From a bacterium (lineage in GTDB: Bacteria; Cyanobacteriota; Vampirovibrionia; Gastranaerophilales; Gastranaerophilaceae): a stretch of DNA of 13,569 nt. The notes under the pieces were generated by a model. The model searched no databases and had not been told where the DNA came from. It worked only from the letters and a program-made list of their open reading frames with translations. The DNA lies in contig JAKSUP010000015.1 of the NCBI GenBank assembly GCA_024408905.1, positions 1 to 13,569 of the forward strand. Direction: 5' to 3'. Below, one piece after another: positions 1-13,569 of this stretch (the first letter of the stretch is position 1; the number at the start of each line of letters is the position of its first letter). A program made the translations under genes and the position numbers.

Positions 1-248
1 CAACAATTCCACACTATTTATCACATCCTGCATATTATCAAAATTATTTTAGAGCAACACTTATAAAAGCACAGATTTATAATTATCTAAAAGAAAATTT
101 GGGAAATATTACAGAAAATAAAAAAACATCAAAATTTTTAAAAGATAATTTGTTTAAATACGGAACATCTTTCGAAGAAAATGAACTAATAGAAAAATTT
201 ACAGGAAAAAAATTATCTTCTGATGATTTTTTAAGCAATTTAAAATAA
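1..248 (+). CDS. Zinc metallopeptidase (M2/M3-like), C-terminal fragment
   Basis: An open frame enters from the left edge (first full codon at 3) and ends with TAA at 246-248, giving about 81 residues. The fragment begins with TIPHYLSHPAYYQNYFRA, which resembles the helix after the active site of gluzincin peptidases (M3 oligopeptidases and bacterial M2 relatives), where a similar aromatic-rich stretch lines the substrate channel. It ends with LFKYGTSF...ELIEKFTGKKLSSDDFL, like the final helices of these families. The catalytic HExxH would lie upstream of the window, so activity cannot be judged. The family is inferred from C-terminal resemblance only; M2 versus M3 is unresolved. The stop codon lies 3 bp from the convergent fliI stop, and no terminator is visible between them. 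Confidence 0.55.
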   Translation, partial: TIPHYLSHPAYYQNYFRATLIKAQIYNYLKENLGNITENKKTSKFLKDNLFKYGTSFEENELIEKFTGKKLSSDDFLSNLK

Positions 249-251
249 AAA

Positions 252-1568: not shown

Positions 1569-2301
1569 TAGCTCCTGTAAGCATTTGTTGTGCTATTTCT
1601 TGAATTTGAGCTGAAACTCGTGAATCTAATCTTGAGGTCATTGTTTCTACAATAACACCGTCAGGGGAAACAGAATTATCTTCTATTATACGAATAGACT
1701 GCATTTTTGGAATTTCTTCTTTAAAATTTTCTGCTAAATTGTTTATATTATCTAATAATTCAGGATTAACAATTATTGTTACATTTTCTTTATCATTTAA
1801 TTCTTTTATTGCATCAAGAGTTATTTTTTTAAGAACTTTGTCATCAAATTTTATATGACAAACCTTGTCTGCAATAATAGAAACAAGTTCAACAATATCC
1901 AATGTAGCAGAATCTATTATATTTTTTTTAATATCAAAAGCACTTGTTGCAAAAGTATCAAGAGCTTATATAGCCTTATAAGCGTCATTTTGAAATTTTG
2001 TAAGACCGTCAGTTTCTCCTTTTTCAAAACCGTCTTGATAACCTTTATCTTTTATACTTTCGTATTCTTGTTCACCTTTTTTTCTTGATTCTTGAATAAT
2101 CCTATCAGCTTCAGTATTGGCAGTTTGAACGATAATTTGTGATTTATTTTCTGCACCATCTAATATTTGTTGAGCTTTAGCATCAGTTTCTTCTATAATT
2201 TTTTTTACTTTTGCTTGTTGCACAGTAACTTTAGACTGCTCAATCGGCAGAACATAGTTGTTACCTATTTGAATTTCTTGACTTTTAATTCTATTACTCA
2301 A
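1546..2301 (-). pseudogene. fliH: Flagellar assembly protein FliH, interrupted by an in-frame TAA
   Basis: FliH is the elongated dimer that binds FliI and tethers it to the motor C-ring. Read through, the frame is 251 codons, a normal FliH length. The N-terminal part (residues 1-111) is charged and coiled-coil-like and ends in GYQDGFEKGETDG, the GxxxG repeat typical of FliH/YscL. The C-terminal part holds VSPDGVIVETMTSRLDSRV, the usual FliH beta-hairpin region. Codon 112 is TAA (plus positions 1966-1968), and both halves are in the same frame, so this is a point nonsense rather than a frameshift. The start is TTG at 2301, overlapping the fliG stop by 8 bp, with GAGGA upstream. Restart at TTG 1902 is possible but no ribosome-binding site is seen there. 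Sequencing error, strain polymorphism, readthrough or true loss all remain possible. Confidence 0.85.
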
Positions 2302-3343
2302 TTAACTCATCCTCAACACTAGCACGTGTAATAGTAATTTCGCCTGTTGCTTCAAGAGTTCTGATAGTGTTAACAATACCTGTTTGAGCTTCTTGTACTT
2401 CTTTTGCACGAACAGGGCCAAGATATTCCATATCATCAGCAAGCATTTGTCTTGCTCTTTCTGACATATTTTTAAATATTTTTTCTTTGATTTCTTCTTT
2501 TGTACCTTTAAGTGCAAGAGCAAGAGTTTTTGTTTCAACATCACGCAATAGTCTTTGAATACCTCTATCATCAAGAATAATAATATCTTCAAATACGAAC
2601 ATAAGATCTCTGACTTCTTGTGCCATTTGTTGATTTTCAATATCAAGCCATTCCATAATATTTTTTTCTGTACTTCTGTCGCAACAGTTCAAAATGTTTG
2701 CAAGAGATTCAACACCACCGGCATTTGAAAAATCTTGTACTAACAAAGCTGAGAATTTCTTTTGAACAATATCTTCAATTGTAGTTAAAATTTCAGGGTT
2801 TGTTGGTGTCATATCTGCAATCTTAAGTGATACTACAGCCTGAATATCCGGAGGTAAGAAAGCCAAAACCTGAGCTGCAAGAGCAGGTCTTAAATATGCA
2901 AGAATTAACGCTAAAAGCTGAGGGTTTTCTGAAGAAAAAGTGTTTGCAAGTTGTGACGGATCTGCTTCGTTTAGGAAATAAAACGGGTTAGTGTTAACCA
3001 TAGAGTTAACTTTATCTAACAAACTGGCAGCTTCAGTTTCACCATACGCTTGTGCCAATAATTGTTTAGCATAAGCAACACCACCTTGAGTAATATAATT
3101 TTTTGCTTGAAAAACAGTTCTGAATTCACTCAAGATACTTGTTAAATCTTCATCAGAAACTTTTCCTAAGTTTGCAATATCAAGAGTAATTTGTTCCAAT
3201 AAATCTTCGTCTTTTATGTTTTTAAGTATTTCAGAAGAAGTAGCAGGTCCAAGAGCAATTAAAAGCGCAGCAACTTTTTGAGTAGGTCGTTTAAAGACCT
3301 TCTTATCTTCTTCTTTTGCTTTTTTTACTTCTTCTATACCCAT
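2294..3343 (-). CDS. fliG: Flagellar motor switch protein FliG
   Basis: FliG is the C-ring protein that binds the MS-ring (FliF) with its N-terminal domain and meets the stator with its C-terminal domain, producing torque. The 349-residue length is slightly above the usual 330-340. Residues 20-110 are the N-terminal armadillo-like domain. The EHPQ motif of the middle domain appears as ENPQ at 139-142, a conservative change. The C-terminal torque domain is clear: FVFEDIIILDDRGIQRLL at 249-266, then ALALKG and SERARQMLADDMEYLGPVR, aligning well with the known FliG_C core including the charged LDDR helix. It starts 12 bp after the fliF stop and its end overlaps the fliH start, consistent with one operon. 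Confidence 0.97.
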   Translation of the reverse strand: MGIEEVKKAKEEDKKVFKRPTQKVAALLIALGPATSSEILKNIKDEDLLEQITLDIANLGKVSDEDLTSILSEFRTVFQAKNYITQGGVAYAKQLLAQAYGETEAASLLDKVNSMVNTNPFYFLNEADPSQLANTFSSENPQLLALILAYLRPALAAQVLAFLPPDIQAVVSLKIADMTPTNPEILTTIEDIVQKKFSALLVQDFSNAGGVESLANILNCCDRSTEKNIMEWLDIENQQMAQEVRDLMFVFEDIIILDDRGIQRLLRDVETKTLALALKGTKEEIKEKIFKNMSERARQMLADDMEYLGPVRAKEVQEAQTGIVNTIRTLEATGEITITRASVEDELIE

Positions 3344-3355
3344 TGTCTATATCTC

Positions 3356-4897
3356 TTATTCTCTGATAAATGATGTTATAAGTTTTGCTGCTTCTTCAGG
3401 AGCGCCCATAATAGCTTCGTTTAATTCAGTTATAGTTTGCTCTTTTTGTGACTGAATTTCTTTTTTGTTTAATTCAATTTTAGGTAAAGCAGCTTCGATT
3501 TCTTCTTCTTCAGAAGCTCTTGATGTATCTTCAACAACCTTCTTTTCAATCATTCTAGGAGCAGGCATTTTTGTAATAAAGTTTTTCAAAACAATTAATG
3601 CAAATAAACCAAGAACAAAAACTACAACCAAAGGAATGACGGATGAAGTAATTGTATAAATAAGCTGTTCTTTTTGATATTGTTTAGCAATATTTGCTTT
3701 AGCTTCTTTATCAATTTTTGCACCTTCAAATTGTAAGCCGGAAACAGAGATAGAATCACCTCTTGAGAAATCAACACCTGAAGCAGAAACAATTAAGTTT
3801 TTAAGTTCTTCTTTCTCAGAATCTGTTAAGATTTTATTAACAGCAACAGCAATAGACATTCTTTTTATAGTTCCCGGAGCATAAACAACTTGTTTAACTT
3901 CTTTTGAAACACTATAATTTATTGCACTTTTTTGTTTAGAATAGTTCAAGTTTCTTTGATTAACAACTGTAGAATTTGGAACATGATTAGGGTTTTCATA
4001 AGATTCAATTTCAGATTGAGAACTTGTAACAACACCTTCTCCCTTTTCATTAATAGGCATATAGCTTTCAATAGTTGATTTTGCAGAATTAAAATCAATA
4101 TCGGCATTAACCTGAACGGAAACATTTCCGTTTCCTACGATTTTTTCTAAAACATCGCTTACTTTTTTTGCAGTTTGTTTTTCCAAGTTTGTTTTAAAAC
4201 TTTCCATATCTGTTGAATTTTTAGAAGTTTCATCAGATAAAACATTTCCGTCTTGGTCTGTGATAAATACTTGGTCAGGAGTCATTCTCGGAACAGAATA
4301 AGCAACAAGGTTTTTAATAGCTTTTACTTGAGAACTTTTGATTTTATAACCCGGATTTAAAACAAGAATAACGGATGCGCTTGGTTTTTCGTCATTATCT
4401 TCAAAAATAGAACGCTCAGGCTCTGCTAACTGTACTTTTGCATATTTTATACCATTAATTTTTTCAATTGAACGTGTAATTTCGCCTTGAAAAATTCTTT
4501 GTTTTGTTAATTTGTTTTTAAAATCAGTTGAACCCAATTGCATATCATCTAATAATTCAAAGCCACCGTCACCGTCTTTGATTAAATCATTTTCGGCAAC
4601 GAAAACTCTCATATCATCTCTGATATTAGATGGAACCAAAATAGATTTTTTATCTTCTGAAACCTTATATTGATAACCATTCTTTTTCATGTTTTCAACA
4701 ATACTTAAAGTATTTACTTCGTTTAAGTCTGAATATAAAACGACCCAGTCAGGTTCCATTGCTTTTGAAAGGAAAAATGTAGCTGCAACAATCGTAACAA
4801 CAATTAAGGCAACTAACCCGAGTTTTTGGGCTTCATCTAAACCGTTCCAAAGCTTTTTTATATCATTTCCGAATAATGCAAAATAGTTATTTTCCAT
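3356..4897 (-). CDS. fliF: Flagellar MS-ring protein FliF
   Basis: FliF forms the membrane MS-ring on which the C-ring and export gate assemble. The protein is 513 residues. A transmembrane helix lies at about residues 26-46 (LVALIVVTIVAATFFL). The periplasmic ring-building domains follow, with VQLAEPERSIF and ASVILVLNPG, typical of the YscJ/FliF domain. A second transmembrane helix (IPLVVVFVLGLFALIVL) is near residue 430. The acidic cytoplasmic tail ends in EEAAKLITSFIRE, the segment that binds FliG. It is the first gene of the operon, with a ribosome-binding site (GGGGA) a few bases before ATG 4897 and a promoter about 30 bp upstream. fliE, often adjacent, is not here. Confidence 0.97.
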   Translation of the reverse strand: MENNYFALFGNDIKKLWNGLDEAQKLGLVALIVVTIVAATFFLSKAMEPDWVVLYSDLNEVNTLSIVENMKKNGYQYKVSEDKKSILVPSNIRDDMRVFVAENDLIKDGDGGFELLDDMQLGSTDFKNKLTKQRIFQGEITRSIEKINGIKYAKVQLAEPERSIFEDNDEKPSASVILVLNPGYKIKSSQVKAIKNLVAYSVPRMTPDQVFITDQDGNVLSDETSKNSTDMESFKTNLEKQTAKKVSDVLEKIVGNGNVSVQVNADIDFNSAKSTIESYMPINEKGEGVVTSSQSEIESYENPNHVPNSTVVNQRNLNYSKQKSAINYSVSKEVKQVVYAPGTIKRMSIAVAVNKILTDSEKEELKNLIVSASGVDFSRGDSISVSGLQFEGAKIDKEAKANIAKQYQKEQLIYTITSSVIPLVVVFVLGLFALIVLKNFITKMPAPRMIEKKVVEDTSRASEEEEIEAALPKIELNKKEIQSQKEQTITELNEAIMGAPEEAAKLITSFIRE

Positions 4898-4928
4898 CTT
4901 TTCCCCAAGGTATAATTGTTCACTATAA

Positions 4929-4957
4929 ATAATAACCTATATTAAATAAAGTTTCAA
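4929..4957 (-). promoter_or_regulatory. Sigma-70-type promoter for fliFGHI
   Basis: Reading the minus strand, -35 TTGAAA (4957-4952) is followed by a 17-bp spacer and -10 TATTAT (4934-4929). This predicts a start near 4922 and a leader of about 25 nt before the fliF ATG at 4897. The resemblance is to housekeeping promoters, not to sigma-28 or sigma-54 flagellar promoters. Prediction only. Confidence 0.6.
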
Positions 4958-4988
4958 ATTGTTAACTTTCTTTACATTCCAAGTGTTT

Positions 4989-5648
4989 TCAGTCTATTTT
5001 TCTGCCAACTTCCATAATAACGGGAACTTTGCCATTGTTTCTTATTTGACGTTCAAAATTTGTAATATCGACAGAGATTGCATCAAAAGTATTATAATGC
5101 ATTGGTATAACATAACTTGCGCCAATCCATTCTGCAGCATTTACTGCTTGCTCGATATCCATTGTATAATATCCTCCGACAGGAAGTATTGCTATTTCCG
5201 GAGAATAAAGCTCCCTTATGGTTTTCATTTCTTGATTTAAACAAGTATCTCCGGCATGATAAATGGATTTGCCTCTTATTGCAAAAACAAAACCACACGG
5301 ACAACCTGCATAATTTCCATCAGGAGTTGAGCTTGAATGGTATGCCGGAACAGCAATTACCCTTCCCCAAGGATATTGCATCCAACTACCAAGCCCGACT
5401 CCGTTTGCGTTAGCACCTTTTTTTGAACAATAATTAGCAAGTTCAAATATTGCAGTAATTTTTGCGCCTGTTTTTTTAGAAATTTCTATGGCACTTCCGA
5501 GGTGATCACCATGACCATGTGTAACAAAAATATCAGTAACACCATTTGGGTCATAATCAGGTGAAGCAACTAAAAAAGGATCTATTAAAATTTTACCTTT
5601 TTCTGTTTCTATTTCGAAACAACTGTGTCCCAAAAACTTAATAGTCAT
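4989..5648 (-). CDS. UPF0173 metal-dependent hydrolase (metallo-beta-lactamase fold)
   Basis: This 219-residue protein belongs to the UPF0173 family of small metallo-beta-lactamase-fold hydrolases, cytoplasmic enzymes related to UlaG. Their substrate is generally not known, so a specific reaction cannot be given. Metal ligands are visible: THGHGDH at about residues 43-49, the central AVPAYHS histidine, GDT near residue 133, and HYNTF near the C-terminus. The N-terminal GHSCFEIETEKGKILIDPFL is a family hallmark. The start ATG lies 2 bp after the HxlR-gene stop, with AAAGG upstream, so the two genes are probably co-transcribed. The regulator may therefore control this hydrolase; that link is inference. 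Confidence 0.92.
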   Translation of the reverse strand: MTIKFLGHSCFEIETEKGKILIDPFLVASPDYDPNGVTDIFVTHGHGDHLGSAIEISKKTGAKITAIFELANYCSKKGANANGVGLGSWMQYPWGRVIAVPAYHSSSTPDGNYAGCPCGFVFAIRGKSIYHAGDTCLNQEMKTIRELYSPEIAILPVGGYYTMDIEQAVNAAEWIGASYVIPMHYNTFDAISVDITNFERQIRNNGKVPVIMEVGRKID

Positions 5649-5650
5649 AA

Positions 5651-5989
5651 TTAACCGTACCTTTCCATTAATTTTCTTAAACGCTTATATTCTTTGCCCC
5701 ATTTTTGCATAGAATCAACAACAGGACGTAAAGTATAACCAATATCACTTAAATAATATTCAACCTTAGGAGGAAGAATATCATATTCTTCTCTTACTAT
5801 TAATCCGTCATCTTCCATTTCTTTTAGGCAAGCTGTTAATACCTTTGCCGTACACCCAAGATTGTTTTTGAGTTCTACAAAACGCATTTCTTTTTTTAGC
5901 AATTCTTTAACTATAAGAATTTTCCATTTTGCACCAACAAGTTGCAAAACAACAGAAACCGGATTTGTAGCTAAATCTTTGTATTTCAT
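5651..5989 (-). CDS. HxlR-family winged-helix transcriptional regulator
   Basis: A MarR-like HxlR-family DNA-binding regulator, typically a dimer responding to aldehydes, redox or other stress. The core LVGAKWKILIVKELL, RFVELKNNLGCTAKVL (recognition helix region), LKEMEDDGLIVREEY and PPKVEYYLSDIG wing follow the family pattern, with usual length. I chose ATG 5989 (112 residues) over ATG 6019 (122 residues). ATG 5989 has GAGGA at 5998-5994 with good spacing, whereas the best promoter would begin transcription near 6014, inside the longer version. The longer start would add MVSKRYCEDC, with two cysteines that could matter for redox sensing, so it is not excluded. The gene sits 2 bp upstream of the UPF0173 hydrolase in the same operon. 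The signal it senses is unknown. Confidence 0.9.
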   Translation of the reverse strand: MKYKDLATNPVSVVLQLVGAKWKILIVKELLKKEMRFVELKNNLGCTAKVLTACLKEMEDDGLIVREEYDILPPKVEYYLSDIGYTLRPVVDSMQKWGKEYKRLRKLMERYG

Positions 5990-6020
5990 GCAATCCTCAC
6001 AGTATCTTTTTGATACCATA

Positions 6021-6048
6021 ATAATATCAAAATTTTAATCTTTTGCAA
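6021..6048 (-). promoter_or_regulatory. Promoter for the HxlR-UPF0173 operon
   Basis: On the minus strand, -35 TTGCAA (6048-6043), a 16-bp spacer ending in TGA, then -10 TATTAT (6026-6021): an extended -10 layout. Transcription would start near 6014, giving a leader of about 25 nt to the ATG at 5989. Prediction only. Confidence 0.5.
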
Positions 6049-6069
6049 TACAGTTTATGGTTGAGAAAA

Positions 6070-6402
6070 TTATTTTTTAACTTCTGTATTTTTTGTTGTA
6101 TCTGAAGATGACCAAAGTTCTTGCAATTTATCTTTAATTCCCATTCTGCCGAACCATTTTAAAACAAGACGTTCTTCGTATCCAAGTCCACCATTTAATT
6201 TACTAAAATCACCTAATACAAAAACAGCTTCAGAAATGGAAATTCTTATAAAACAATGTGGCTGTACAAATTTTTTCGGATCCATCCAAATTTTAATATT
6301 ATTATATTTTGCAACGCTGACGCTTCTGGCGTTATGGGCGTCTGATTGTTCTTGAATAATAAAACTTTTTAAATTGTCCTCTAAATCTTTAAATGTAGCC
6401 AT
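6070..6402 (-). CDS. Hypothetical protein, 110 residues
   Basis: I do not recognise this family. The protein is soluble-looking, with no signal peptide or membrane helix, and has a short central hydrophobic block (FIRISISEAVFVLGDF, about residues 51-66), a glycine-containing turn (KLNGGLGYEERLVLKWFGR) and a polar Thr/Lys-rich tail. The pattern suggests a small alpha/beta domain. It starts 12 bp after the UPF0210 stop, with AAAGGA before the ATG, so it is probably the second gene of that operon. A job linked to the UPF0210 protein is only a guess from position. Coding reality is supported by the ribosome-binding site, operon spacing and codon use like that of its neighbours. Confidence 0.8.
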   Translation of the reverse strand: MATFKDLEDNLKSFIIQEQSDAHNARSVSVAKYNNIKIWMDPKKFVQPHCFIRISISEAVFVLGDFSKLNGGLGYEERLVLKWFGRMGIKDKLQELWSSSDTTKNTEVKK

Positions 6403-6414
6403 CTCAATTTCCTT

Positions 6415-7782
6415 TTAATTATTTAAACTGTGAATTGGAGCCGGAATATGCCCGCCACGATTTACAAAATTTGCTGATGATAAATTTCCGACTTCCATAA
6501 TAGGTGCTTCTCCGAGTAAACCACCATAAACCACGTTATCTCCTACTTTTTTGTTTGGTACAGGAATAATTCTTGTGGCTGTTGTTTTTTTGTTAATCAT
6601 GCCAATGGCCATTTCATCGGCTATCATACCGGCGATTGTTGTAGAAGGTGTATCACCAGGTATTGCAATCATATCAAGCCCAACAGAACAAACACAAGTC
6701 ATTGCTTCAAGCTTATCAAAAGTCAAATGACCGTTTGAAACAGCTTCAATCATTCCTGCATCTTCAGAAACAGGAATAAACGCTCCTGAAAGCCCACCAA
6801 TATAACTTGTTGCCATAATCCCGCCTTTTTTAACAGAATCATTAAGCATTGCAAGTGCTGCAGTTGTCCCGTGTGCGCCTGCGTGTTCCAAACCCATAGC
6901 TTGGAATATTTCAGCAACACTATCTCCTACAGCAGGAGTTGGAGCCAGAGATAAATCTATAACACCAAACGGTATATTCAATTTTTCTGCAAGTTTTCTT
7001 CCGACTAATTCGCCTGTGCCTGTTATTTTATATGCAGTTTGTTTAATTTTATTTGCTAAAGTTCCCATATCTGCATCTTTGTGTAAATCAGATATTGCAG
7101 CTTTAACAACTCCCGGCCCTGATACACCTATATTTAATGCACAATCAGGTTCTCCGTAACCACAATATGCTCCTGCCATAAATGGATTATCTCCGACAGA
7201 ATTGCAAAAACAAACAAGTTTAGCTGCGCCGATGCCATCTTTATCTGCTGTCATTTCAGCTGATTGTTTAATAATTTCTGACATTTTTAAAATAGCATCC
7301 ATATTAATTCCGGCTTTTGATGTTGCAACATTGACTGATGAACATAACCTTTCTGTTGTTGCAAGAGCTTCCGGAATAGATTCAATCAGTCCTAAATCAC
7401 CAACGGTGAATCCTTTTTCTACAAGGGCAGAAAAACCTCCAATAAAGTCAATGCCAAGATTTTTGGCAGATTTATCAAGAACCTGTGCTATTTTTACATA
7501 ATCTTTTTGAGAGCAGCTTTCTCCAACAATAGAAATCGGAGTAACTGCAATTCTTTTATTAACAATCGGAATTGAATAATCGTTTTCAATTTCGTTTGCA
7601 TATTTTACAAGATTTTTTGCGTATTTATCAAGTTTAAATTGGATTTTGTCGCAAACAGTATTAATATTTTCGGAAAAACAATCTCTCAAACTAATTGCCA
7701 TAGTTACTGTACGAATATCAAAATTATACAGCTTTATCATATTAATTGTTTCAATAATTAAATTTTCGTCAAATACTGTCAT
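6415..7782 (-). CDS. UPF0210 (DUF711, PFL-like) family protein
   Basis: A 455-residue member of the UPF0210 family, a conserved cytoplasmic protein with a fold related to the glycyl-radical/PFL superfamily but no established reaction. Family hallmarks visible are the N-terminal [20 protein letters not shown], the middle [13 protein letters not shown], the glycine-rich [30 protein letters not shown] and MSYIGG-like [20 protein letters not shown], ending with [10 protein letters not shown]. In many genomes the gene sits beside a short ACT-domain UPF0237 gene. None is found here; instead a DAHP synthase with an N-terminal ACT-like domain is divergent. No Shine-Dalgarno sequence precedes the ATG, and the best promoter places the start of transcription only about 3 nt upstream. 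Confidence 0.95.
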
Positions 7783-7791
7783 AGTGATTTT

Positions 7792-7820
7792 AGTATACCA
7801 TATATTAAGATAAATGCGAA
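7792..7820 (-). promoter_or_regulatory. Promoter for the UPF0210 operon, nearly leaderless
   Basis: On the minus strand, -35 TTCGCA (7820-7815), a 17-bp spacer ending in TGG, then -10 TATACT (7797-7792), an extended -10 form. The predicted start is near 7785, only about 3 nt before the ATG at 7782, and no ribosome-binding site is present. Confidence 0.5.
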
Positions 7821-7833
7821 GATTTAAACTTTT

Positions 7834-7842
7834 GTGTATAAT
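7834..7842 (+). promoter_or_regulatory. -10 region for aroF
   Basis: GTG followed directly by TATAAT (7837-7842). No good -35 is visible. The predicted start near 7849 leaves a short leader before the GGAGGT ribosome-binding site. The same 11-nt string GTGTATAATAA recurs at 10404-10414. Confidence 0.5.
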
Positions 7843-7854
7843 AAAACTAACCTT

Positions 7855-7860
7855 GGAGGT
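7855..7860 (+). promoter_or_regulatory. Ribosome-binding site fixing the aroF start
   Basis: GGAGGT lies 6 nt before ATG 7867. It rules out the longer in-frame GTG start at 7834, which overlaps the -10 box. Confidence 0.85.
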
Positions 7861-7866
7861 ATTCAG

Positions 7867-8883
7867 ATGTTAGTAGTAATGAGTAATAGTGCAACCGAAA
7901 AAGATATACAACGCGTTGCAATGTTTCTTGAGGCAAAAGGTTTTGAAGCTCGGATTTCACATGGTGAAGTAAGAGTTGTAGTCCATGCAATCGGGGTTAA
8001 AGAAGAAGTTGACCAACGTGACTTTGAATTATTACCTGGAGTTTTAGAGGTAATAAAAGTTACTACAAGCTATAAACTTGCAGCTCGTGTATCTCAAGGT
8101 CAGGATACAATTGTTGAAGTTAATGGGGTTAAGTTTGGAGATAAATATACAGGCTTAATTGCCGGCCCTTGTACAATCGAATCTTATGATCAAATGGATA
8201 AAACGGCTCAAGAGCTTTCTGAATCTAATGTAAAAATTCTTAGAGGTGGCGCATTTAAGCCAAGAACGAGTCCTTATACGTTCCAAGGTTTAGGCGAAGA
8301 AGGTTTAAAAGTTATTAGAAGTGTTGCTGATAACCATAACATGGCTGTTACATCAGAAATTATGGATATTTCACAAATTGAAATGTTTATGCGTTATGTT
8401 GATATTCTTCAAATTGGTGCAAGAAATATGCAAAATTTCAATTTGTTAAAAGAACTCGGAAAAATCCATAAGCCTGTTATCTTGAAACGTGGACTTTCTG
8501 CTACTTATGAAGAATGGCTTATGTCAGCAGAATATATTATGTCCGGTGGAAATAATCAGGTAATACTTTGCGAACGAGGGATAAGAACATTTGAAAAATA
8601 TACGAGAAATACGCTTGATTTATCGGCAATTCCTGTGATTAAGAAATTAAGCCATTTGCCGATTATTGTTGATCCGTCTCACGCAACGGGACTTCGTGAC
8701 AAGGTTGAACCGATGTCCAGAGCAGCTGTTGCTGCAGGATGTGACGGCTTGATAATTGAAGTTCATCATAACCCTGAAGTTGCCGTATGTGACGGTGCAC
8801 AATCACTTTATCCTTGGCAATATGATTTACTTTATAAACAAATCAAGCAAATTGCTCCGATTGTCGGAAAAGAAATTGTTTAA
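7867..8883 (+). CDS. aroF: 3-deoxy-7-phosphoheptulonate (DAHP) synthase
   Basis: Condenses phosphoenolpyruvate with erythrose 4-phosphate, the first step of the shikimate pathway to aromatic amino acids. With the start at 7867 the protein is 338 residues, matching the Thermotoga maritima-type enzyme. Residues 1 to about 80 form a ferredoxin/ACT-like regulatory domain ([17 protein letters not shown]). The TIM barrel follows, with IAGPCTIES (metal-binding Cys), [12 protein letters not shown] (substrate phosphate), [37 protein letters not shown] (metal His), IIEVHHNPE (metal Glu) and CDGAQS (metal Asp). All the expected ligands are present, so it should be active. The N-terminal domain in this class binds tyrosine or phenylalanine for feedback inhibition; that is known for the family, not shown here. 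A glycosyltransferase gene follows after 24 bp in the same direction. Confidence 0.96.
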
Positions 8884-8907
8884 AATTTTGACGGAAGAAA
8901 GAGAAAT

Positions 8908-10404
8908 ATGAAATCATTAAACGAAAAAATCCTATACATATACTTGTTTGTGTATGCAATTTTGTGGACAATAATTGGCTCATTCAAAAATAGTGGTGGA
9001 GTTGATGCTCTTGAAGCTATTTCTTGGGGCGACTTGGTTAGTTTTGGTACAAATAAACACCCACCATTTTCAGGTTGGTTAATGGGTGGTTTTTATCATT
9101 TGTTGGGCGATAACGATATTGCTATCTATATTCTGGGACAGATTTGTTTACTTATAGGTTTTGTGTTTATCTATAAATTAGCTAAAAACTTTTTAACGGA
9201 AGAAAAAGCAATTGGCGCAACAGTTATTATAAGTATAACATTCTATTATGCTTACCAAACTTTTATAGACAATTTTAATTGTAACATTATTTCAATATGC
9301 TTGTGGCCAATATTAGTTTATTATTTCTATAAATCAATAAAAGAAAATAAGATTAAAGATTGGTTACTTCTTGGTCTTGCAGCAGGGATTTCTTTTTTAG
9401 CGAAATATCAGGTAGTATTTTTGTTTGCACCAATGTTTTTGTATCTTGTTTTGTTTGACAGAAAACAATTTGCGAAAATTGGTCTTTATATAGCAGGGAT
9501 TGTTGCAACACTTGTTGTGTTACCACATTTTATTTGGTTGTATCAAAACGACTTTTTCTCAATGAATTATATAATGGGAAGAACAAACGTAGACATACAC
9601 AATACCCCTGTCTCTCTTGTCAAATACGGAAGAATTGTATTCCCTATAAAATTCTACGGTGATCAGATTTTAGCTATGATGCCATGTTTTGTGGTGTATT
9701 TAATTGCAGCATTGAAGGTCACAGAAATAAAATTCGATAATACAAAAGAAAAGTTTTCTGACAAAATGTTTTTGATTTTTGTTGGACTTATGCCGATGAT
9801 TATCTTAGGTGGCATGGGAATTGTTACGGGAAATCGTGTAGTCGGAAATTGGGGTTCTACAATGATAGGTTTTTGTGGAATACTTCTGTTCTATTTCTTT
9901 CCTATAAAATTTGATAAAGAAATTTTTAAATATTATATGAAATGGATTGTTGCAGTTGTTTGTTTATGGGCAATCGGGGTTTCAACATTCTTATTATTCC
10001 AAACAAAAATGGTAGTTGGTTATCCTCATCAAACAATTACAAGAGATTTTGACCAAATTTGGGCAGAAGAAACAAACAACGCCCCTTTGAAATATGTACT
10101 CGGTCACACTTTCTATATTTTCCAATTTAATGTGTATGACAAACAAAAACCGACGATTGTTTTGGATACGCACGGGCATGCCAATCCTTGGATAAGTGAA
10201 GACGAAGTTATGAAAAACGGAGTACTTATTATAATGGGTGGTGACAAAACTTTTGAACAAGATGTCAGACAATATTTACCAAATTTGCCAAAAAATTATA
10301 ATCTGAAACCGAAAAAGTACGTGTTTAAAATAACAAACAAGTTTAATAAAACAGAAGAATATGATATTTATTATAAAGTAATACCACCAGCAAAAGCATT
10401 TTAG
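8908..10404 (+). CDS. GT39/ArnT-like membrane glycosyltransferase
   Basis: A 498-residue polytopic membrane protein of the PMT_2/ArnT-like superfamily. These enzymes move a sugar from a polyprenyl-phosphate donor onto a lipid, protein or glycan at the outer face of the membrane. The first helix (ILYIYLFVYAILWTIIG, about 8-24) is followed by an external loop with GGVDALEAISWGD and KHPPFSGW, the acidic residue and HPP pattern typical of the family. About nine to ten further hydrophobic helices run to around residue 370. The C-terminal 120 residues are soluble, with GHTFYIFQFNVYD and LDTHGHANPWIS. Acceptor and sugar cannot be told from sequence. The start is ATG 8908 with a weak purine-rich site upstream. 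It is probably co-transcribed with aroF, without an evident metabolic link. Confidence 0.88.
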   Translation: MKSLNEKILYIYLFVYAILWTIIGSFKNSGGVDALEAISWGDLVSFGTNKHPPFSGWLMGGFYHLLGDNDIAIYILGQICLLIGFVFIYKLAKNFLTEEKAIGATVIISITFYYAYQTFIDNFNCNIISICLWPILVYYFYKSIKENKIKDWLLLGLAAGISFLAKYQVVFLFAPMFLYLVLFDRKQFAKIGLYIAGIVATLVVLPHFIWLYQNDFFSMNYIMGRTNVDIHNTPVSLVKYGRIVFPIKFYGDQILAMMPCFVVYLIAALKVTEIKFDNTKEKFSDKMFLIFVGLMPMIILGGMGIVTGNRVVGNWGSTMIGFCGILLFYFFPIKFDKEIFKYYMKWIVAVVCLWAIGVSTFLLFQTKMVVGYPHQTITRDFDQIWAEETNNAPLKYVLGHTFYIFQFNVYDKQKPTIVLDTHGHANPWISEDEVMKNGVLIIMGGDKTFEQDVRQYLPNLPKNYNLKPKKYVFKITNKFNKTEEYDIYYKVIPPAKAF

Positions 10405-10406
10405 TG

Positions 10407-10412
10407 TATAAT
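10407..10412 (+). promoter_or_regulatory. Possible -10 box for the structured RNA
   Basis: TATAAT starts 3 nt after the glycosyltransferase stop, in the same GTGTATAATAA context as the aroF promoter. It would start RNA near 10419, just where the folded segment begins. No convincing -35 is seen. Confidence 0.4.
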
Positions 10413-10420
10413 AAGATTAA

Positions 10421-10511
10421 TGTCGGAGTGGCACTCTGCCGCAGGAAAAGTTGACTAAATGTCAAGTTTTCCGAGAGGGTTGTGCTTGACACAACTTTCG
10501 CCACGTAGACA
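10421..10511 (+). ncRNA. Putative three-way-junction structured RNA of unknown class
   Basis: The 91-nt segment folds neatly. P1 pairs TGTC (10421-10424) with GACA (10508-10511) and GTGGC (10428-10432) with GCCAC (10500-10504), separated by a GGA/GTA internal loop that could form non-canonical G-A pairs. P2 pairs CTCT (10434-10437) with AGAG (10474-10477), then GGAAAA with TTTTCC and TTGAC (10451-10455) with GTCAA (10461-10465) around loop TAAAT, with one G/G mismatch and a 6-nt bulge GCCGCA. P3 pairs GTTGTG (10479-10484) with CACAAC (10490-10495). Its first 11 nt after the T (10422-10432) equal the first 11 nt of the downstream tRNA-Leu. It matches no riboswitch or ribozyme motif I can recall. 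Its 3' end overlaps the tRNA -35 box and no terminator follows, so it may be a leader of the tRNA transcript. Confidence 0.5.
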
Positions 10512-10534
10512 AACATTATTCGTAGATTTATAAT
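10506..10534 (+). promoter_or_regulatory. Promoter for tRNA-Leu
   Basis: -35 TAGACA (10506-10511), exact 17-bp spacer, -10 TATAAT (10529-10534); predicted start about 10541, four bases before the mature tRNA. This is the best promoter in the window. Confidence 0.75.
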
Positions 10535-10544
10535 TTAATAGTAC

Positions 10545-10629
10545 GTCGGAGTGGCGAAATTGGTAGACGCGCATGATTCAGGTTCATGTGGGTAACTCCT
10601 TGAGGGTTCGAGTCCCTTCTCCGACACCA
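10545..10629 (+). tRNA. tRNA-Leu, anticodon CAG
   Basis: A complete class II tRNA with encoded CCA. The acceptor stem pairs GTCGGAG (10545-10551) with CTCCGAC (10619-10625). The D stem is GCG/CGC with GG in the loop. The anticodon stem is CATGA/TCATG with loop TTCAGGT (anticodon CAG at 10579-10581). A long variable arm and T arm GAGGG-TTCGAGT-CCCTT follow, then A-CCA. It decodes CUG. It has its own promoter. Pieces of both its ends are repeated nearby: the 5' 11 nt at 10422 and the 3' region at 10689 and 10902. Confidence 0.97.
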
Positions 10630-10901
10630 TATCTCGTAAGAGATATAGGCAGTGGGATTGGACGAGAACCACCGAACAAAGTTCGGTCAGGGTTCGAGCG
10701 AATTTGCGGACGAACGAAGTGAAACGAGTTCGGGTAGCGAACAAATTGAGTCAACTAAAACCAAAGGTTTTATAGACGAAACTTTGTGAGCGTGAAGCAA
10801 ATTCAAGACAACGGGAGCGAGCTGAGTGCGAAGCCTTGACTGTGAAAGATGAAATCTTGAAACAGGCAAGCGTAGACACGTTAAAAGCGAGCGACCAAGA
10901 C
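10630..10901 (+). other. Hairpin-rich non-coding cassette after tRNA-Leu
   Basis: No gene is seen here. The sequence is more GC-rich than its surroundings and is a chain of short hairpins. These are ATATCTC/GAGATAT with loop GTAA right after the tRNA; CCGAAC/GTTCGG with loop AAA nested in GAACC/GGTTC; AAAACC/GGTTTT with loop AAA enclosed by GTC/GAC; and a long imperfect stem in which CTTG, CTGT and AAGAT pair with ATCTT, ACAG and CAAG around loop GAA. GAATTTGC near 10699 can also pair with GCAAATTC near 10798. None ends in a T-run, so they are not simple terminators. The recurring loop AAA and nested layout suggest a structured RNA or a REP-like repeat. Whether it is transcribed with the tRNA is unknown. 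Confidence 0.5.
10689..10698 (+). repeat. Partial copy of the tRNA-Leu T arm
   Basis: AGGGTTCGAG is identical to 10603-10612 in the tRNA. Together with the copy at 10902-10917 it looks like a second tRNA 3' end split by about 200 bp. Confidence 0.5.
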
Positions 10902-10917
10902 AGTCCCTTCTCCGACA
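10902..10917 (+). repeat. Copy of the tRNA-Leu 3' end (attachment-site-like)
   Basis: AGTCCCTTCTCCGACA is an exact 16-nt match to 10611-10626, the 3' end of the tRNA without its CCA. A direct repeat of a tRNA 3' end in the same orientation is what an integrative element leaves as attL/attR. The intervening 275 bp carry no integrase, so this would be a remnant or a very small element. Nearly all of the segment is explained instead if the hairpin cassette itself duplicated the tRNA end. Confidence 0.5.
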
Positions 10918-10943
10918 GTTTCTTTTTCTGTAGAAAAAGAAAC
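10918..10943. repeat. Perfect inverted repeat
   Basis: GTTTCTTTTTCT (10918-10929) and AGAAAAAGAAAC (10932-10943) are perfect complements separated by two bases. It sits immediately after the tRNA 3'-end copy and its right arm belongs to the direct repeat starting at 10931. It has no GC-rich core, so it is not a typical terminator. Confidence 0.7.
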
Positions 10944-11000
10944 CAAAAAGACTTATCATACAGGGCTTGAATAAAAACTACCAGCTTGAAGTTTGAAAGA
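10931..11000 (+). repeat. Direct repeat, copy A
   Basis: The first 33 nt (10931-10963) are identical to 11069-11101, and similarity continues at about 80 percent to near 11000. It contains one unit of a degenerate motif like ctACAAGaTTtAAGTtTgGAAAG (10979 onward). Confidence 0.8.
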
Positions 11001-11022
11001 AAAAAGTAGGCAAAAAAGAAAA
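11000..11022 (+). repeat. GTAGGC dispersed repeat, copy 1
   Basis: An A-rich repeat with core AAAAAAGTAGGCAAAAAAG followed by AAAA. It recurs at 11549-11571 and 11997-12014. It lies between the tRNA-linked repeats and the zinc-ribbon gene. Confidence 0.65.
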
Positions 11023-11068
11023 GAATAAAGGGTTTGGTTAGGTGTTACAAGATTTAAGTTTAGAAGTA

Positions 11069-11138
11069 TAGAAAAAGAAACCAAAAAGACTTATCATACA
11101 GAGCCTGAATAAGAACTACAAGATTAAAGTCTGGAAAG
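11069..11138 (+). repeat. Direct repeat, copy B
   Basis: Second copy of the 10931 repeat, 138 bp downstream. It ends about 25 bp before the zinc-ribbon gene. A third copy of its inner motif, TTACAAGATTTAAGTTTAGA, lies between A and B at 11045-11064. Confidence 0.8.
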
Positions 11139-11162
11139 AAAAATGTTGAGGATAAAAAACAA

Positions 11163-11558
11163 ATGATATGTCCTAAATGTAAACAGGAATTAGATAATAT
11201 TGAATCTTCTCCATTTTGCCCATTTTGTGGTTATGAGTTTGTTAAAGGATACTTTGACGAAGACGAGAGTGCAAAAACAGATATAAAGTCAGACGCTCCA
11301 CGGAAGAAAAAATATTATTGGCGAAAAAAGGAATTAAATGATCCAAAAGCAATAAAAAAGGAGCTGTTTATATGCATAGGAGAGATGTTGTGTTTAATAG
11401 GAGTGTTATCTTTTATGATATACACCGGAACCTTTGAACTCCTTAAAATTCACCAAATATGGGGTATTATTTTATTTTTTCCTGTAATAATATTGATATA
11501 TTTGAGCGAAATAATTAGTTGGATAAAATTATTAAAGAAGCTAAAAATAAAAAAGTAG
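11163..11558 (+). CDS. Small zinc-ribbon membrane protein
   Basis: A 131-residue protein with an N-terminal zinc ribbon (Cys3, Cys6, Cys19, Cys22: CPKC...CPFC), an acidic then basic linker to about residue 57, and two predicted membrane helices (about 68-88 and 98-117), ending in a Lys-rich tail. The layout is that of the many small zinc-ribbon membrane proteins of unknown role; no specific function can be given. The start is ATG 11163 with GAGG about 11 nt upstream, a long spacing. The last codons and stop (AAA AAG TAG) lie inside copy 2 of the GTAGGC repeat, so the C-terminal lysines may be repeat-derived. It stands alone between repeats, which hints at an accessory gene. No clear promoter is seen. 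Confidence 0.75.
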   Translation: MICPKCKQELDNIESSPFCPFCGYEFVKGYFDEDESAKTDIKSDAPRKKKYYWRKKELNDPKAIKKELFICIGEMLCLIGVLSFMIYTGTFELLKIHQIWGIILFFPVIILIYLSEIISWIKLLKKLKIKK

Positions 11559-11571
11559 GCAAAAAAGAAAA
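11544..11571 (+). repeat. GTAGGC dispersed repeat, copy 2
   Basis: Overlaps the end of the zinc-ribbon gene and supplies its stop codon. It shares with copy 3 a 23-nt exact match (11544-11566 against 11992-12014), and with copy 1 the GTAGGC core plus the following A-rich tail. Confidence 0.65.
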
Positions 11572-11609
11572 AAATACAAAGTACAATTTTGCACCAAAAA
11601 TTCATACCG

Positions 11610-11637
11610 TTGCAACAATTAAAAAACATGTTATAAT
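11610..11637 (+). promoter_or_regulatory. Promoter for the antisense RNA
   Basis: -35 TTGCAA (11610-11615), 16-bp spacer, and extended -10 TGT-TATAAT (TATAAT at 11632-11637). The predicted start is about 11644, exactly where the 5' stem of the antisense RNA begins. Confidence 0.7.
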
Positions 11638-11672
11638 AAAAGAGTAGAGAGGGTGTTCCCTCAAGAACACCC
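11638..11672 (-). terminator. Terminator of the toxin mRNA
   Basis: On the minus strand, GGGTGTTC and GAACACCC pair around a 6-nt loop (arms at 11672-11665 and 11658-11651), followed by TCTCTACTCTTTT. The stem is strong, the U tract moderate. The same hairpin opens the antisense RNA on the other strand. Confidence 0.6.
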
Positions 11673-11682
11673 AGCTTCAGTT
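11667..11682. repeat. Direct repeat a of the toxin-antitoxin locus
   Basis: ACACCCAGCTTCAGTT. It matches 11792-11807 at 15 of 16 positions. This copy is at the 3' end of the toxin message and within the antisense RNA. Confidence 0.75.
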
Positions 11683-11684
11683 CT

Positions 11685-11774
11685 CTACATTAATTTTGAG
11701 ATAAAAATTAGAAATTGTCCTATTACCAGTAGGGCAATTTTTATTATCTCGTGCCATTTATTGTTACTATTCAT
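11685..11774 (-). CDS. 29-residue hydrophobic peptide, probable type I toxin
   Basis: A short frame from ATG (11774-11772) to TAG (11687-11685). A polar N-terminus, MNSNNKWHE, precedes one membrane helix (IIKIALLVIGQFLIFI, residues 10-25) and the end SKLM. Small size, a single helix with Lys near each end and a Trp at the interface are typical of membrane-acting type I toxins such as Fst, TisB, TxpA and AapA; I cannot assign it to one of these by sequence. AAAGGAGG lies 5 nt before the ATG, the strongest ribosome-binding site in the window, which argues that the frame is translated. Its upstream CCTTCTTT (minus strand 11833-11826) could mask that site. A terminator follows directly, and an antisense RNA with its own promoter and terminator opposes it. 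It is flanked by GTAGGC repeats. Confidence 0.72.
   Translation of the reverse strand: MNSNNKWHEIIKIALLVIGQFLIFISKLM
11712..11745 (+). terminator. Terminator of the antisense RNA
   Basis: AAATTGTCCTA (11712-11722) pairs with TAGGGCAATTT (11730-11740), one G-T pair, loop TTACCAG, then TTATT. It lies opposite the toxin coding region and must also be compatible with the encoded helix. Confidence 0.75.
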
Positions 11775-11791
11775 GGTTCCCTCCTTTCTCT

Positions 11792-11807
11792 ACACCTAGC
11801 TTCAGTT
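11792..11807. repeat. Direct repeat b of the toxin-antitoxin locus
   Basis: ACACCTAGCTTCAGTT, second copy of the 11667 repeat, in the toxin 5' untranslated region immediately upstream of its ribosome-binding site. Confidence 0.75.
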
Positions 11808-11836
11808 GGATAGTGTCGTGTATGTAAAGAAGGTTC

Positions 11837-11842
11837 ATTATA
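11837..11842 (-). promoter_or_regulatory. Possible -10 box of the toxin mRNA
   Basis: TATAAT on the minus strand, predicting a start near 11830 and a message of about 190 nt ending at the terminator near 11640. The -35 region (GATAGT at 17 bp) is poor. Confidence 0.45.
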
Positions 11843-11991
11843 TAGCAAACTGCTCTACAACTATCATTGTACCATATAGCCAATTATATTAGAAGGTTTT
11901 AAGCTCAGTTTTGGATATTATAATACATATGTGTAGCTTGTTTTAAGGTTTCAATAAGCACGTTGTCTAAATACTACTTGCTATAAGGCTG
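11843..11991. other. Non-coding stretch upstream of the toxin gene
   Basis: No convincing gene. A TATAAT at 11919-11924 on the plus strand has only a weak -35 and no following frame or hairpin. With the toxin-antitoxin locus this completes the gene-poor region between the zinc-ribbon gene and the glycosyltransferase. Confidence 0.4.
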
Positions 11992-12014
11992 AAAATAAAA
12001 AAGTAGGCAAAAAA
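11992..12014 (+). repeat. GTAGGC dispersed repeat, copy 3
   Basis: Exact match to 11544-11566. It forms the right border of the segment holding the toxin-antitoxin locus and overlaps an A/T inverted repeat after the glycosyltransferase stop. Confidence 0.65.
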
Positions 12015-12021
12015 CTTTTTT
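11997..12021 (-). terminator. Weak A/T-rich terminator-like hairpin after the glycosyltransferase
   Basis: AAAAAAGT (11997-12004) and ACTTTTTT (12014-12021) are perfect complements. On the minus strand the hairpin is followed by a T-rich stretch. There is almost no GC, so its strength is doubtful. Confidence 0.3.
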
Positions 12022-12035
12022 ATAATTAACCCGTT

Positions 12036-13569
12036 TTATGTCAGTATATTATAAATTATCGGATATTTTTCAAAAATTTTATTAAAAGCATATTCAACAT
12101 CCATACCAACTCCATTTTTCTTATTAATTTTGCATAATCCGTTATTCAATGTTTCTTCAATTTGATACATATTTATATCATCATCTTTTACCAAAGTTAT
12201 CGGAGTACCGTTTAAAACGGCCATTCCCCAAAAATAAATATCATCATGAGTTGGTATTAAAGTTTTTATTTGTTCAATATTATAAATATCCTTATGCAAT
12301 GAATGTGGTGGGTACAAGACTCCACCTCCACCCATCAAAAAGTTATTAAAACTACTCATATAATTAATATTTGAGTAGTGTGGTTCTACTCGCAAAACAC
12401 GTCTTCTTTTTTTTATCTTAATGTTATTTGCCCGTCTTGCATGAATGTTATCGGGGTTCTTTTTATATGAATTATAAAGGATTTCAAGAAAATCTTCTTT
12501 GTAATATAAGTCATCATCAACCGTTACAATAATATCATCAGGAAATTCCTGTATTGCAGGAATAAGTTTTTTGTAAGACTTTAAGTCCTCGCACCACTTA
12601 ATTTCTAATCCAAGAGTTTTTAGTTGTAACAATTCTTGTGGCAAGTCATCTTCTTTGTTTGGAAATTGGCTGTCGGCAAGCCAAAGGATTAGCTTATTTG
12701 GTTTTAAAGTTTGCCTTAGTAAAGTATTTATTGTTAGGTGAACGGTTCCGATTCTTGCAGGATAGCTTGTCAAAGAAACGATAAGTTTTGGGTTTGTTTC
12801 AGCATTGTTTAAACCATATTCAGTAGCTTTTTTGTAATCAAAAACCAATTTATGTTTTATTTTTAGAGCAGCGAATTTGAATAATTCAATGGTGAAACGA
12901 CCGTCAATATCTTTATAAAAAAACATTCTTTTTGGTTTTTTAATAACGACCTTTTGCACCGGATTTATTATTGCAAGTGATTCCAAACCGTTTTCTATTA
13001 AAAAGTTTAAAATATACTTATACGCATTAAAACGATCTGTATTATTATGATTTTTGGTTATTGAATTTCTATTGGAACAAAAATAGTAATAGCTGCTATT
13101 TGTAACTGTCACAATACTTTTAGCTTTTTTAATTATTTCAGGTATCCATAACATGTCTTCATAAGTAGCACTTTTTTTGAAAGGTGCTTTTTTAATTAAT
13201 TCAGCTTTGTATAACTTATTCCAAACAAAGCAATAATTTGGAATTCCACAACGCCTAAATTTTTCTTCTAAAGAATTATAGATTTCTTCTTTTGTATAGT
13301 GTATGAGATATTTTTTGGGATGAAGGATTTTTCTCTTAGTAATATTTGCACAAGCTATGTCACAATTATTTTTTACTATAGTGTTGTATAAATTCTCATA
13401 AAAATTCAAGTCTATCCAATCATCAGAATCTACAAAACCTATGTACTCTCCCGTTGCAGATTCTATGCCGGTATTTCTTGCAGCAGAAAGTCCTTGATTT
13501 TTTTGACTAATAATTTTTATTCTGTTATCTTTCTCGGCATATTCTTTTAAAATTTCCAAAGAATTATCA
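12036..13569 (-). CDS. Two-domain GT2-type glycosyltransferase, N-terminus cut by window end
   Basis: The frame runs off the right edge. The codons before TTG 13559 continue in frame as Asp-Asn-Ser, the end of the usual GT2 DDGSTDNS motif, so the true start is outside and TTG is not the start. Domain 1 (about residues 1-180 from TTG) is a GT2 GT-A fold with NQGLSAARNTGI and the metal-binding DSDD at 44-47. Domain 2 (about 255-460) is a second GT-A-like domain: LIVSLTSYPARI, LILWLADSQFP, DLKSYKKLIPA, VTVDDDLYY (345-353), HARRAN, GGGGVLYPP and THDDIYFW. Such proteins build surface polysaccharides (capsule, O-antigen) from nucleotide sugars in the cytoplasm. Two active sites in one chain suggest two consecutive sugar additions. 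Sugar specificity is unknown. It is probably part of a polysaccharide cluster to the right. Confidence 0.88.
   Translation of the reverse strand, partial: DNSLEILKEYAEKDNRIKIISQKNQGLSAARNTGIESATGEYIGFVDSDDWIDLNFYENLYNTIVKNNCDIACANITKRKILHPKKYLIHYTKEEIYNSLEEKFRRCGIPNYCFVWNKLYKAELIKKAPFKKSATYEDMLWIPEIIKKAKSIVTVTNSSYYYFCSNRNSITKNHNNTDRFNAYKYILNFLIENGLESLAIINPVQKVVIKKPKRMFFYKDIDGRFTIELFKFAALKIKHKLVFDYKKATEYGLNNAETNPKLIVSLTSYPARIGTVHLTINTLLRQTLKPNKLILWLADSQFPNKEDDLPQELLQLKTLGLEIKWCEDLKSYKKLIPAIQEFPDDIIVTVDDDLYYKEDFLEILYNSYKKNPDNIHARRANNIKIKKRRRVLRVEPHYSNINYMSSFNNFLMGGGGVLYPPHSLHKDIYNIEQIKTLIPTHDDIYFWGMAVLNGTPITLVKDDDINMYQIEETLNNGLCKINKKNGVGMDVEYAFNKIFEKYPIIYNILT

Follow-up and report, generated by a model that had tools for sequence, protein, structure and literature searches.

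Type I toxin–antitoxin systems were previously known only in Proteobacteria, Firmicutes and Tenericutes, and msoT1/msoA1 of Microcystis aeruginosa is the first reported in Cyanobacteria, according to PMC12390103. Two groups of described systems come closest to the locus presented here: the Fst/par systems, which combine convergent promoters, a shared bidirectional terminator, direct repeats (DRa/DRb) at the initiation site, a stem burying the Shine-Dalgarno (SD) sequence and a peptide signature (PMC7472228), and aapA and hok, in which a long-distance 5'-3' interaction closes the full-length mRNA (PMC6733600). Here we describe a candidate type I module in a 13,569-nucleotide stretch of the genome of a gut bacterium of the Gastranaerophilaceae (assembly GCA_024408905.1, contig JAKSUP010000015.1, positions 1 to 13,569; hereafter the window), in the order Gastranaerophilales, which NCBI taxonomy places within the Cyanobacteriota/Melainabacteria group. 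An initial annotation of this DNA had proposed an Fst/par-like locus at 11638..11842, in which the gene of a 29-residue membrane peptide with a strong ribosome-binding site converges with that of an antisense RNA of about 100 nt.

With a probability of roughly 0.82, the locus is a type I toxin–antitoxin module of a new family, for which we infer transcription, 3' trimming of the mRNA, toxicity of the peptide and its neutralisation. The initial observation is confirmed and its interpretation supported. The module belongs to a real and conserved, probably new family of mixed RNA architecture, best read as a combination of Fst/par-like convergent genes and direct repeats, a hok/AapA-like mRNA closed between its 5' and 3' ends, and an antitoxin terminator lying inside the toxin open reading frame (ORF). 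The parts of the module, their conservation, the coupled changes and the predicted folds all come from sequence and comparison between loci. Features general to type I systems are present: a short hydrophobic peptide with its own SD and, as sequence and predicted structure, an antisense RNA with promoter and terminator that overlaps the toxin mRNA.

Predicted antisense promoter, and a terminator hairpin within the proposed toxin gene

Comparisons were based on loci collected by peptide, not by structure. A total of 77 hits yielded 73 distinct loci, 65 of which retain an SD beside the start codon and are represented by 50 non-redundant loci; eight were set aside as lacking the SD-start pair or as unrelated (L066, L072, L074, L098, L106, L107, L117 and L123). 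The family peptides are 24–29 residues long with a single hydrophobic segment, and the best 15-residue hydropathy mean is 2.51 in the window peptide and 2.29 across the 50 representatives. Both predicted RNAs fold stably (plus-strand RNA 11640-11746, -37.5 kcal/mol, z -6.97; toxin mRNA, -60.3 kcal/mol, z -4.21).

The antisense promoter annotated at 11610-11637 is present and is the joint best of 8 promoter-like sites between positions 10800 and 12600, but taken at the window alone it proves nothing, because shuffled sequences yield as many (8.3). Comparison of the loci raises it above chance, as evidenced by a -10 hexamer with a match of at least 5/6 in all 50 representatives (about 33 of 50 in mononucleotide shuffles), an exact TATAAT in 43 of 50 (about 6 in shuffles), and a distance of 37–60 nt to the stop codon in 49 of 50. 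The length given for the antisense RNA also stands, at about 102 nt, with its start now predicted near 11644-11645 rather than at 11638.

The hairpin 11712-11740 is present, though a simple terminator scan did not pick it up. Across 600 cells (50 representatives), 516 are Watson-Crick pairs, 54 can form G.U pairs only in the antisense RNA, one only in the mRNA, and 29 form neither, a bias which indicates that the hairpin in the ORF is one that pairs as antisense RNA and not as mRNA. Two of its pairs covary: pair (4,26) is formed in 49 of 50 loci (permuted mean 32.6, maximum 39) and pair (3,27) in 48 of 50 (permuted mean 22.1, maximum 35), with 0 of 2000 permutations reaching either value. These pairs link codon 13 to codons 20 and 21, and the peptides change in step. 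Ala13 (three loci) and Ile13 (one locus) are always accompanied by Gln20, and Tyr13 (nine), Asp13 (seven) and Ser13 (three) by His20 in 19 of 19 loci. Cys13 occurs with His20 in 13 of 14 loci (the exception, L114, has Tyr20) and Asn13 in 9 of 10 (the exception, L118, has Gln20 and a broken pair), and the three Gly13 loci carry His20 twice and Asn once. The intrinsic antisense terminator of the initial annotation is thus borne out by covariation and by the antisense G.U bias, and the joint conservation that it named as a check is found, the peptide, antisense promoter and terminator occurring together across loci.

Direct repeats, predicted mRNA closure and proposed mechanism

Three features go beyond the initial annotation, namely direct repeats, an SD-blocking stem and closure of the mRNA between its ends. 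The 16-nt repeats, together with copies of TTCTCTACA at both 11681 and 11786, make the antisense RNA complementary to the mRNA 5' untranslated region (UTR) as well as to its 3' half. When the 17 nt after the stop codon were compared with 5' UTR positions -50 to -12 in the 50 representatives, the longest common stretch averaged 6.80 nt for cognate pairs against 4.54 nt when permuted (0 of 5000 permutations reach this), and three displaced controls of the same test gave no signal. A repeat of at least 6 nt is found in 41 of 50 representatives compared with 15.3% of non-cognate pairs. The energy of the trans duplex over the whole arm is likewise lower for cognate pairs (-23.4 against a permuted mean of -20.4, sd 0.43; best of 2000 permutations -21.7), and in 11 genomes with paralogs the mean repeat is 6.8 nt for cognates against 4.8 nt. 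The repeat copies thus evolve in concert, while orthogonality may be incomplete; specificity between paralogs as judged by duplex energy was not clear. At one locus, L095 (G246:C132), tandem modules share the same direct repeat and carry different peptides, as if recombined.

The mRNA leader pairs preferentially with the region just past the stop codon. Its helix score against the 16 nt from the stop codon is 15.2, compared with 13.2 for permuted leaders (0 of 5000 reach this), and pairing with the hairpin region is reached by 3 of 5000 permutations; no significant pairing was seen between the leader and either the repeat in the 5' UTR (3873 of 5000) or the ORF end (1973 of 5000). In the 40 of 50 representatives with a recognised leader motif (the other 10 were left out), the mean pairing probability between leader and 3' UTR is 0.41, compared with 0.04 when the 5' UTR is shuffled, and is higher in 38 of 40. 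Pairing of the SD is 0.89 against 0.69, and is higher in 33 of 40. A helix between SD and anti-SD scores above the shuffle mean in 37 of 50 representatives (mean 18.0 against 15.2), and all six mRNA folds inspected show pairing between the 5' end and the 3' UTR, in L080 via a short outer stem only.

We posit that the minus strand would give rise to an mRNA of about 215 nt encoding the 29-residue hydrophobic peptide, and that the finished mRNA would fold shut, its 5' leader pairing both with the 3' end and just past the stop codon, and the leader anti-SD covering the SD. The plus strand would produce an antitoxin RNA of about 102 nt, ending at the terminator inside the toxin ORF, which would be a perfect antisense of the mRNA 3' half and whose bulged segment could also recognise the second repeat copy beside the SD. 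Should the mRNA open, for example through the presumed 3' trimming, free antitoxin would bind at these two sites and prevent translation; if antitoxin were lacking, the peptide would be produced and inserted into the membrane, where it may be toxic. The chances are about even that this constitutes a distinct type I architecture, one in which the leader would carry the antitoxin's short sequence and compete for the site after the stop codon, the SD-adjacent repeat would offer a second antitoxin site, the terminator in the ORF would force coupled amino-acid changes, and the repeat would act as an evolving address separating modules. The features are summarized in Table 1. The predicted toxin promoter falls outside the limits first drawn for the locus, 11638..11842; the membrane peptide and its ribosome-binding site are retained as annotated.

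Table 1. Coordinates of the putative toxin–antitoxin module and its predicted elements in the window
Feature	Position	Strand	Basis
Predicted toxin mRNA -10, TACAAT with TGG before	11871-11866	-	Sequence; mRNA start expected at ~11858-11859
Toxin mRNA 5' leader, predicted partner of 3' UTR 11683-11678 and 11649-11644 (5'-3' closure)	11847..11858	-	Minimum free energy and centroid folds
Anti-SD CCUUCUUU, partner of AAAGGAGG 11787-11780	11826..11833	-	Predicted fold
Direct repeat, 5' UTR copy, within SD/anti-SD stem-loop; proposed antitoxin target in trans	11792..11807	-	15/16 nt identical to other copy
SD region AAAGGAGG, 5 bases from ATG	11787-11780	-	Sequence
Proposed toxin ORF MNSNNKWHEIIKIALLVIGQFLIFISKLM, 29 codons, one hydrophobic segment	11774-11688, TAG 11687-11685	-	Sequence, homologs and codon-position test
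Direct repeat, 3' UTR copy	11667..11682	-	Repeat comparison
Repeat complement 11673-11681, bulged out of predicted antitoxin fold	part of 11667..11682		Fold
3' UTR hairpin GGGUGUUC/GAACACCC, then CUCUAC and UCUUUUAUU; likely toxin mRNA terminator	11644..11688	-	Sequence scan and fold
Antitoxin promoter TTGCAA-16-TGTTATAAT	11610..11637	+	Sequence; -10 conserved
Antitoxin RNA, ~102 nt, with the recognition segment bulged from a 5' hairpin and a terminator following	11644..11745	+	Fold; ends predicted
Antitoxin terminator hairpin AAATTGTCCTA-TTACCAG-TAGGGCAATTT, T-rich DNA after, within toxin codons IALLVIGQF	11712..11740	+	Compensatory changes, G.U asymmetry

Comparison with described type I systems

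The comparison with Fst systems is based on par of pAD1 and the Fst/Ldr family (PMC7472228) and on Streptococcus mutans fst-Sm/srSm (PMC3543317). Shared with these are convergent promoters (the antitoxin promoter being clear here and the toxin promoter less certain), direct repeats with opposite directions of transcription, which supply complementarity close to the translation start, a stem within the mRNA that buries the SD (predicted here), and a short membrane peptide, as well as repeat sequences that differ between loci. In contrast to the Fst/par arrangement, no shared bidirectional terminator is found, the antitoxin here ending inside the toxin ORF and the mRNA hairpin following the stop codon; the 5' repeat is placed immediately ahead of the SD and not over the start codon; and the 5' end of the mRNA has its predicted pairing partner in the 3' UTR. 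The Fst peptide signature P/D/S/T-xxx-G is also absent, with P, D, S or T four residues before the invariant Gly in 0 of 50 representatives, Trp occurs after the membrane Gly in 0 of 50, and in place of a charged C-terminus the last seven residues carry 0, 1 and 2 charges in 40, 9 and 1 of 50 peptides, respectively. Because the shared terminator and peptide signature are lacking, the module as judged by its sequence is not a member of Fst; the original label of Fst/par-like thus holds for the convergent genes and direct repeats and fails for the terminator and signature, and the closure resembles that of hok and AapA.

With aapA/IsoA of Helicobacter pylori and hok/sok (PMC6733600), the locus has in common a full-length mRNA closed between its 5' and 3' ends and occlusion of the SD (here predicted and cognate-specific), a peptide of about 30 residues, several chromosomal copies, and an antisense RNA overlapping the ORF. 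In aapA3 the stable anti-SD comes with the 3' end, whereas here the predicted anti-SD lies in the leader, and the antitoxin described here differs from those of both systems in having a second target via the direct repeats. None of the peptide family models tried matched, in libraries (Pfam, NCBIfam, PADLOC) which need not contain AapA and with no direct Hok or AapA peptide comparison made. The likeness to msoT1/msoA1 extends to a candidate type I module in the wider Cyanobacteriota/Melainabacteria group and to an antitoxin, msoA1, predicted to bind the ORF 3' end and 3' UTR. It does not extend to the toxin, as MsoT1, which was tested in E. coli, is a 63-residue protein with two predicted membrane helices, and in PMC12390103 'direct repeat' appears only in the reference list.

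Evidence against the proposed module and alternative explanations

Several observations weigh against reading the locus as a toxin–antitoxin module. Regarding the peptide, the N-terminal codons lack a codon-position signal (38/49/50 of 222), the ratio of nonsynonymous to synonymous differences (pN/pS) is 0.59 over 28 independent pairs, only moderately below 1 in a test that is blunted because the RNA also constrains synonymous sites, and the window compared with L083 alone shows 14 nonsynonymous and 3 synonymous changes. A plus-strand ORF (11653-11799) is also open, and would extend beyond the antitoxin terminator. Of the five hairpin pairs tested by permutation, three lack significance (the observed value is reached in 753, 164 and 2000 of 2000 permutations), since their columns show little variation or none beyond allowed pairs. 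Nine of 50 representatives have no repeat of at least 6 nt, the 5' UTR with the best duplex energy is the cognate one for only 4 of 50 antitoxins, the cognate is stronger by that measure in only 30 of 48 paralog comparisons, and the best leader helix is misplaced in several representatives (e.g. L055, L077, L111). The toxin promoter is weakly supported: a -10 of at least 5/6 lies 65–150 nt upstream of the start in 42 of 50 representatives, against about 37 of 50 in shuffles, and an exact TATAAT is found in 30 of 50, compared with about 8 in shuffles. In the decay count discussed below, the 7-to-1 asymmetry is a small count, L074 and L098 resemble one remnant in two genomes, L072 is missing part of the 3' UTR, and L107, apparently broken, is counted as intact by rule.

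The alternative that survives best, itself unlikely, is that the peptide is a small non-toxic membrane protein, with a role in regulation or signalling, and that a cis antisense RNA controls its synthesis through the same RNA logic. Several such roles would suit the very varied neighbours of the locus. However, three predicted layers of control (closed mRNA, buried SD and antisense RNA) are typical of type I modules, as are copies at many sites, a patchy presence and mostly one-sided decay. Both parts are present in 86 of 95 distinct loci (counted after removal of L117, L123, identical loci and weak hits), a broken toxin with an antitoxin promoter in seven, the reverse in one and neither part in one. 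The sole locus with an intact toxin and no recognised antitoxin promoter, L167, has no more than a 4/6 hexamer at the usual spacing, and its contig ends about 150 nt away. This modest signal (7 to 1 of 95) is compatible with a toxin, lending that role weak and indirect support. In four loci (L066, L074, L107 and L153) the toxin 5' half is apparently lost and the antisense RNA gene kept.

We consider it very improbable that the locus is a conserved RNA element only, with the ORF a by-product of its hairpins. Part of the peptide conservation (K-x-A-L and G-H) does fall in the terminator stem, and the modest pN/pS would agree with such an origin; the SD retained beside the start codon and the C-terminal tail would not. 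In this tail, outside the hairpin, codon positions 1, 2 and 3 differ in 62, 16 and 55 of 217 cases (31 independent pairs), which indicates that the second codon position, the setter of hydrophobicity, is held. Conservation of the reading frame, another check named at the outset, is accordingly found in the C-terminal tail and in a pN/pS below 1. Chance, in the sense of a hydrophobic ORF that happens to lie near a promoter-like match in AT-rich intergenic DNA, would be allowed by the shuffle-like frequency of promoter-like sites around the locus; it is refuted by the homologous loci, the hairpin covariation and coupled changes across the 50 representatives, and the cognate-specific pairing, and its probability is negligible.

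Distribution and genomic surroundings

All relatives of the toxin–antitoxin candidate found by profile lie close to home. A DNA search of 57 genomes recovered same-genus loci in G014 and G032 at 79% and 74% identity and weaker true matches in G021 and G011; weak DNA matches in G012, G007, G031, G047, G027, G053, G030, G026 and G001 were unrelated on inspection, as were weak protein matches in G040, G008, G025 and G032:C129. With a five-peptide profile and a loose limit of E<=1, 154 of 288 family genomes gave matches, many by chance. A profile of 49 peptides (the L065 peptide excluded) had matches at E<=0.01 in 67 of the 286 genomes from the order and in 51 of the 386 genomes in a draw from the phylum (16 of 142 genera), and every genome matched in either draw belongs to the window's own family. 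The relatives include a rumen Candidatus Gastranaerophilales genome, and an identical peptide occurs in a genome from horse faeces. The genome from which the window comes is 78% complete and has a single copy of the locus.

Consistent with the suggestion of a possible new family, no Pfam or NCBIfam model (six peptides) or PADLOC model (four peptides) was found up to E=10, a range in which the HMMER filters drop most weak matches. Nothing credible emerged from the other collections: one of six peptides had a PHROGs match (E 0.085), to a family whose function is unknown, which was not taken as real, the best hit among solved structures in the PDB had an E of 1.3, and at gathering level the only Rfam match was a tRNA, the best one below threshold (RefA9, E 0.086, with a score of 25 bits where the cut-off is 49) likewise not being taken as real. 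The window peptide had no tblastn match in 50,697 phage and 72,556 plasmid records, and a scan of viral_contigs with the five-peptide profile was also empty, both being weak tests with such short peptides; a phage or plasmid origin was rejected on these searches, with the same caution. A common genomic neighbour was sought among 91 neighbour ORFs, which belong to varied families, each accounting for at most 3 of 91 among the 25 families shown per library. Two of these 91 ORFs, from the 50 representatives, match Cas1, and others match a type III methyltransferase and phage-like repressors. Literature searches, whose scope excluded most subscription journals and preprints, returned no type I toxin–antitoxin report for Gastranaerophilales or Melainabacteria, no antisense RNA in connection with Gastranaerophilales and no toxin–antitoxin system with Vampirovibrionia; this group and toxin–antitoxin systems were mentioned together only in papers on a Fusobacterium phage and a coral microbiome (by title).

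Around the locus, a short repeat containing AAAAGTAGGCAAAAAA is present in three copies (10988-11027, 11537-11576 and 11988-12014; 88% and 96% identical pieces). An ORF of 131 residues at 11163-11558(+) has a weakly zinc-ribbon-like N-terminus (best Pfam E 0.00043, below the cut-off) and a hydrophobic C-terminal half. The tRNA gene 10545-10626 is followed by an unusual stretch (10627-10930) ending in CAGTCCCTTCTCCGACA, which closely resembles the 3' end of that tRNA, and this stretch looks as if it were a degenerate duplication.

Implications

If the proposed module is what it appears to be, type I modules would be common among uncultured relatives of Cyanobacteria that do not photosynthesise, and thus beyond the phyla known to contain them until 2025 (PMC12390103). 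The 86 loci with both parts would provide a covariation data set for the combination of closed mRNA, SD stem and antisense RNA, and a coding sequence doubling as an antitoxin terminator would represent a clean case of two selective constraints acting on the same bases.
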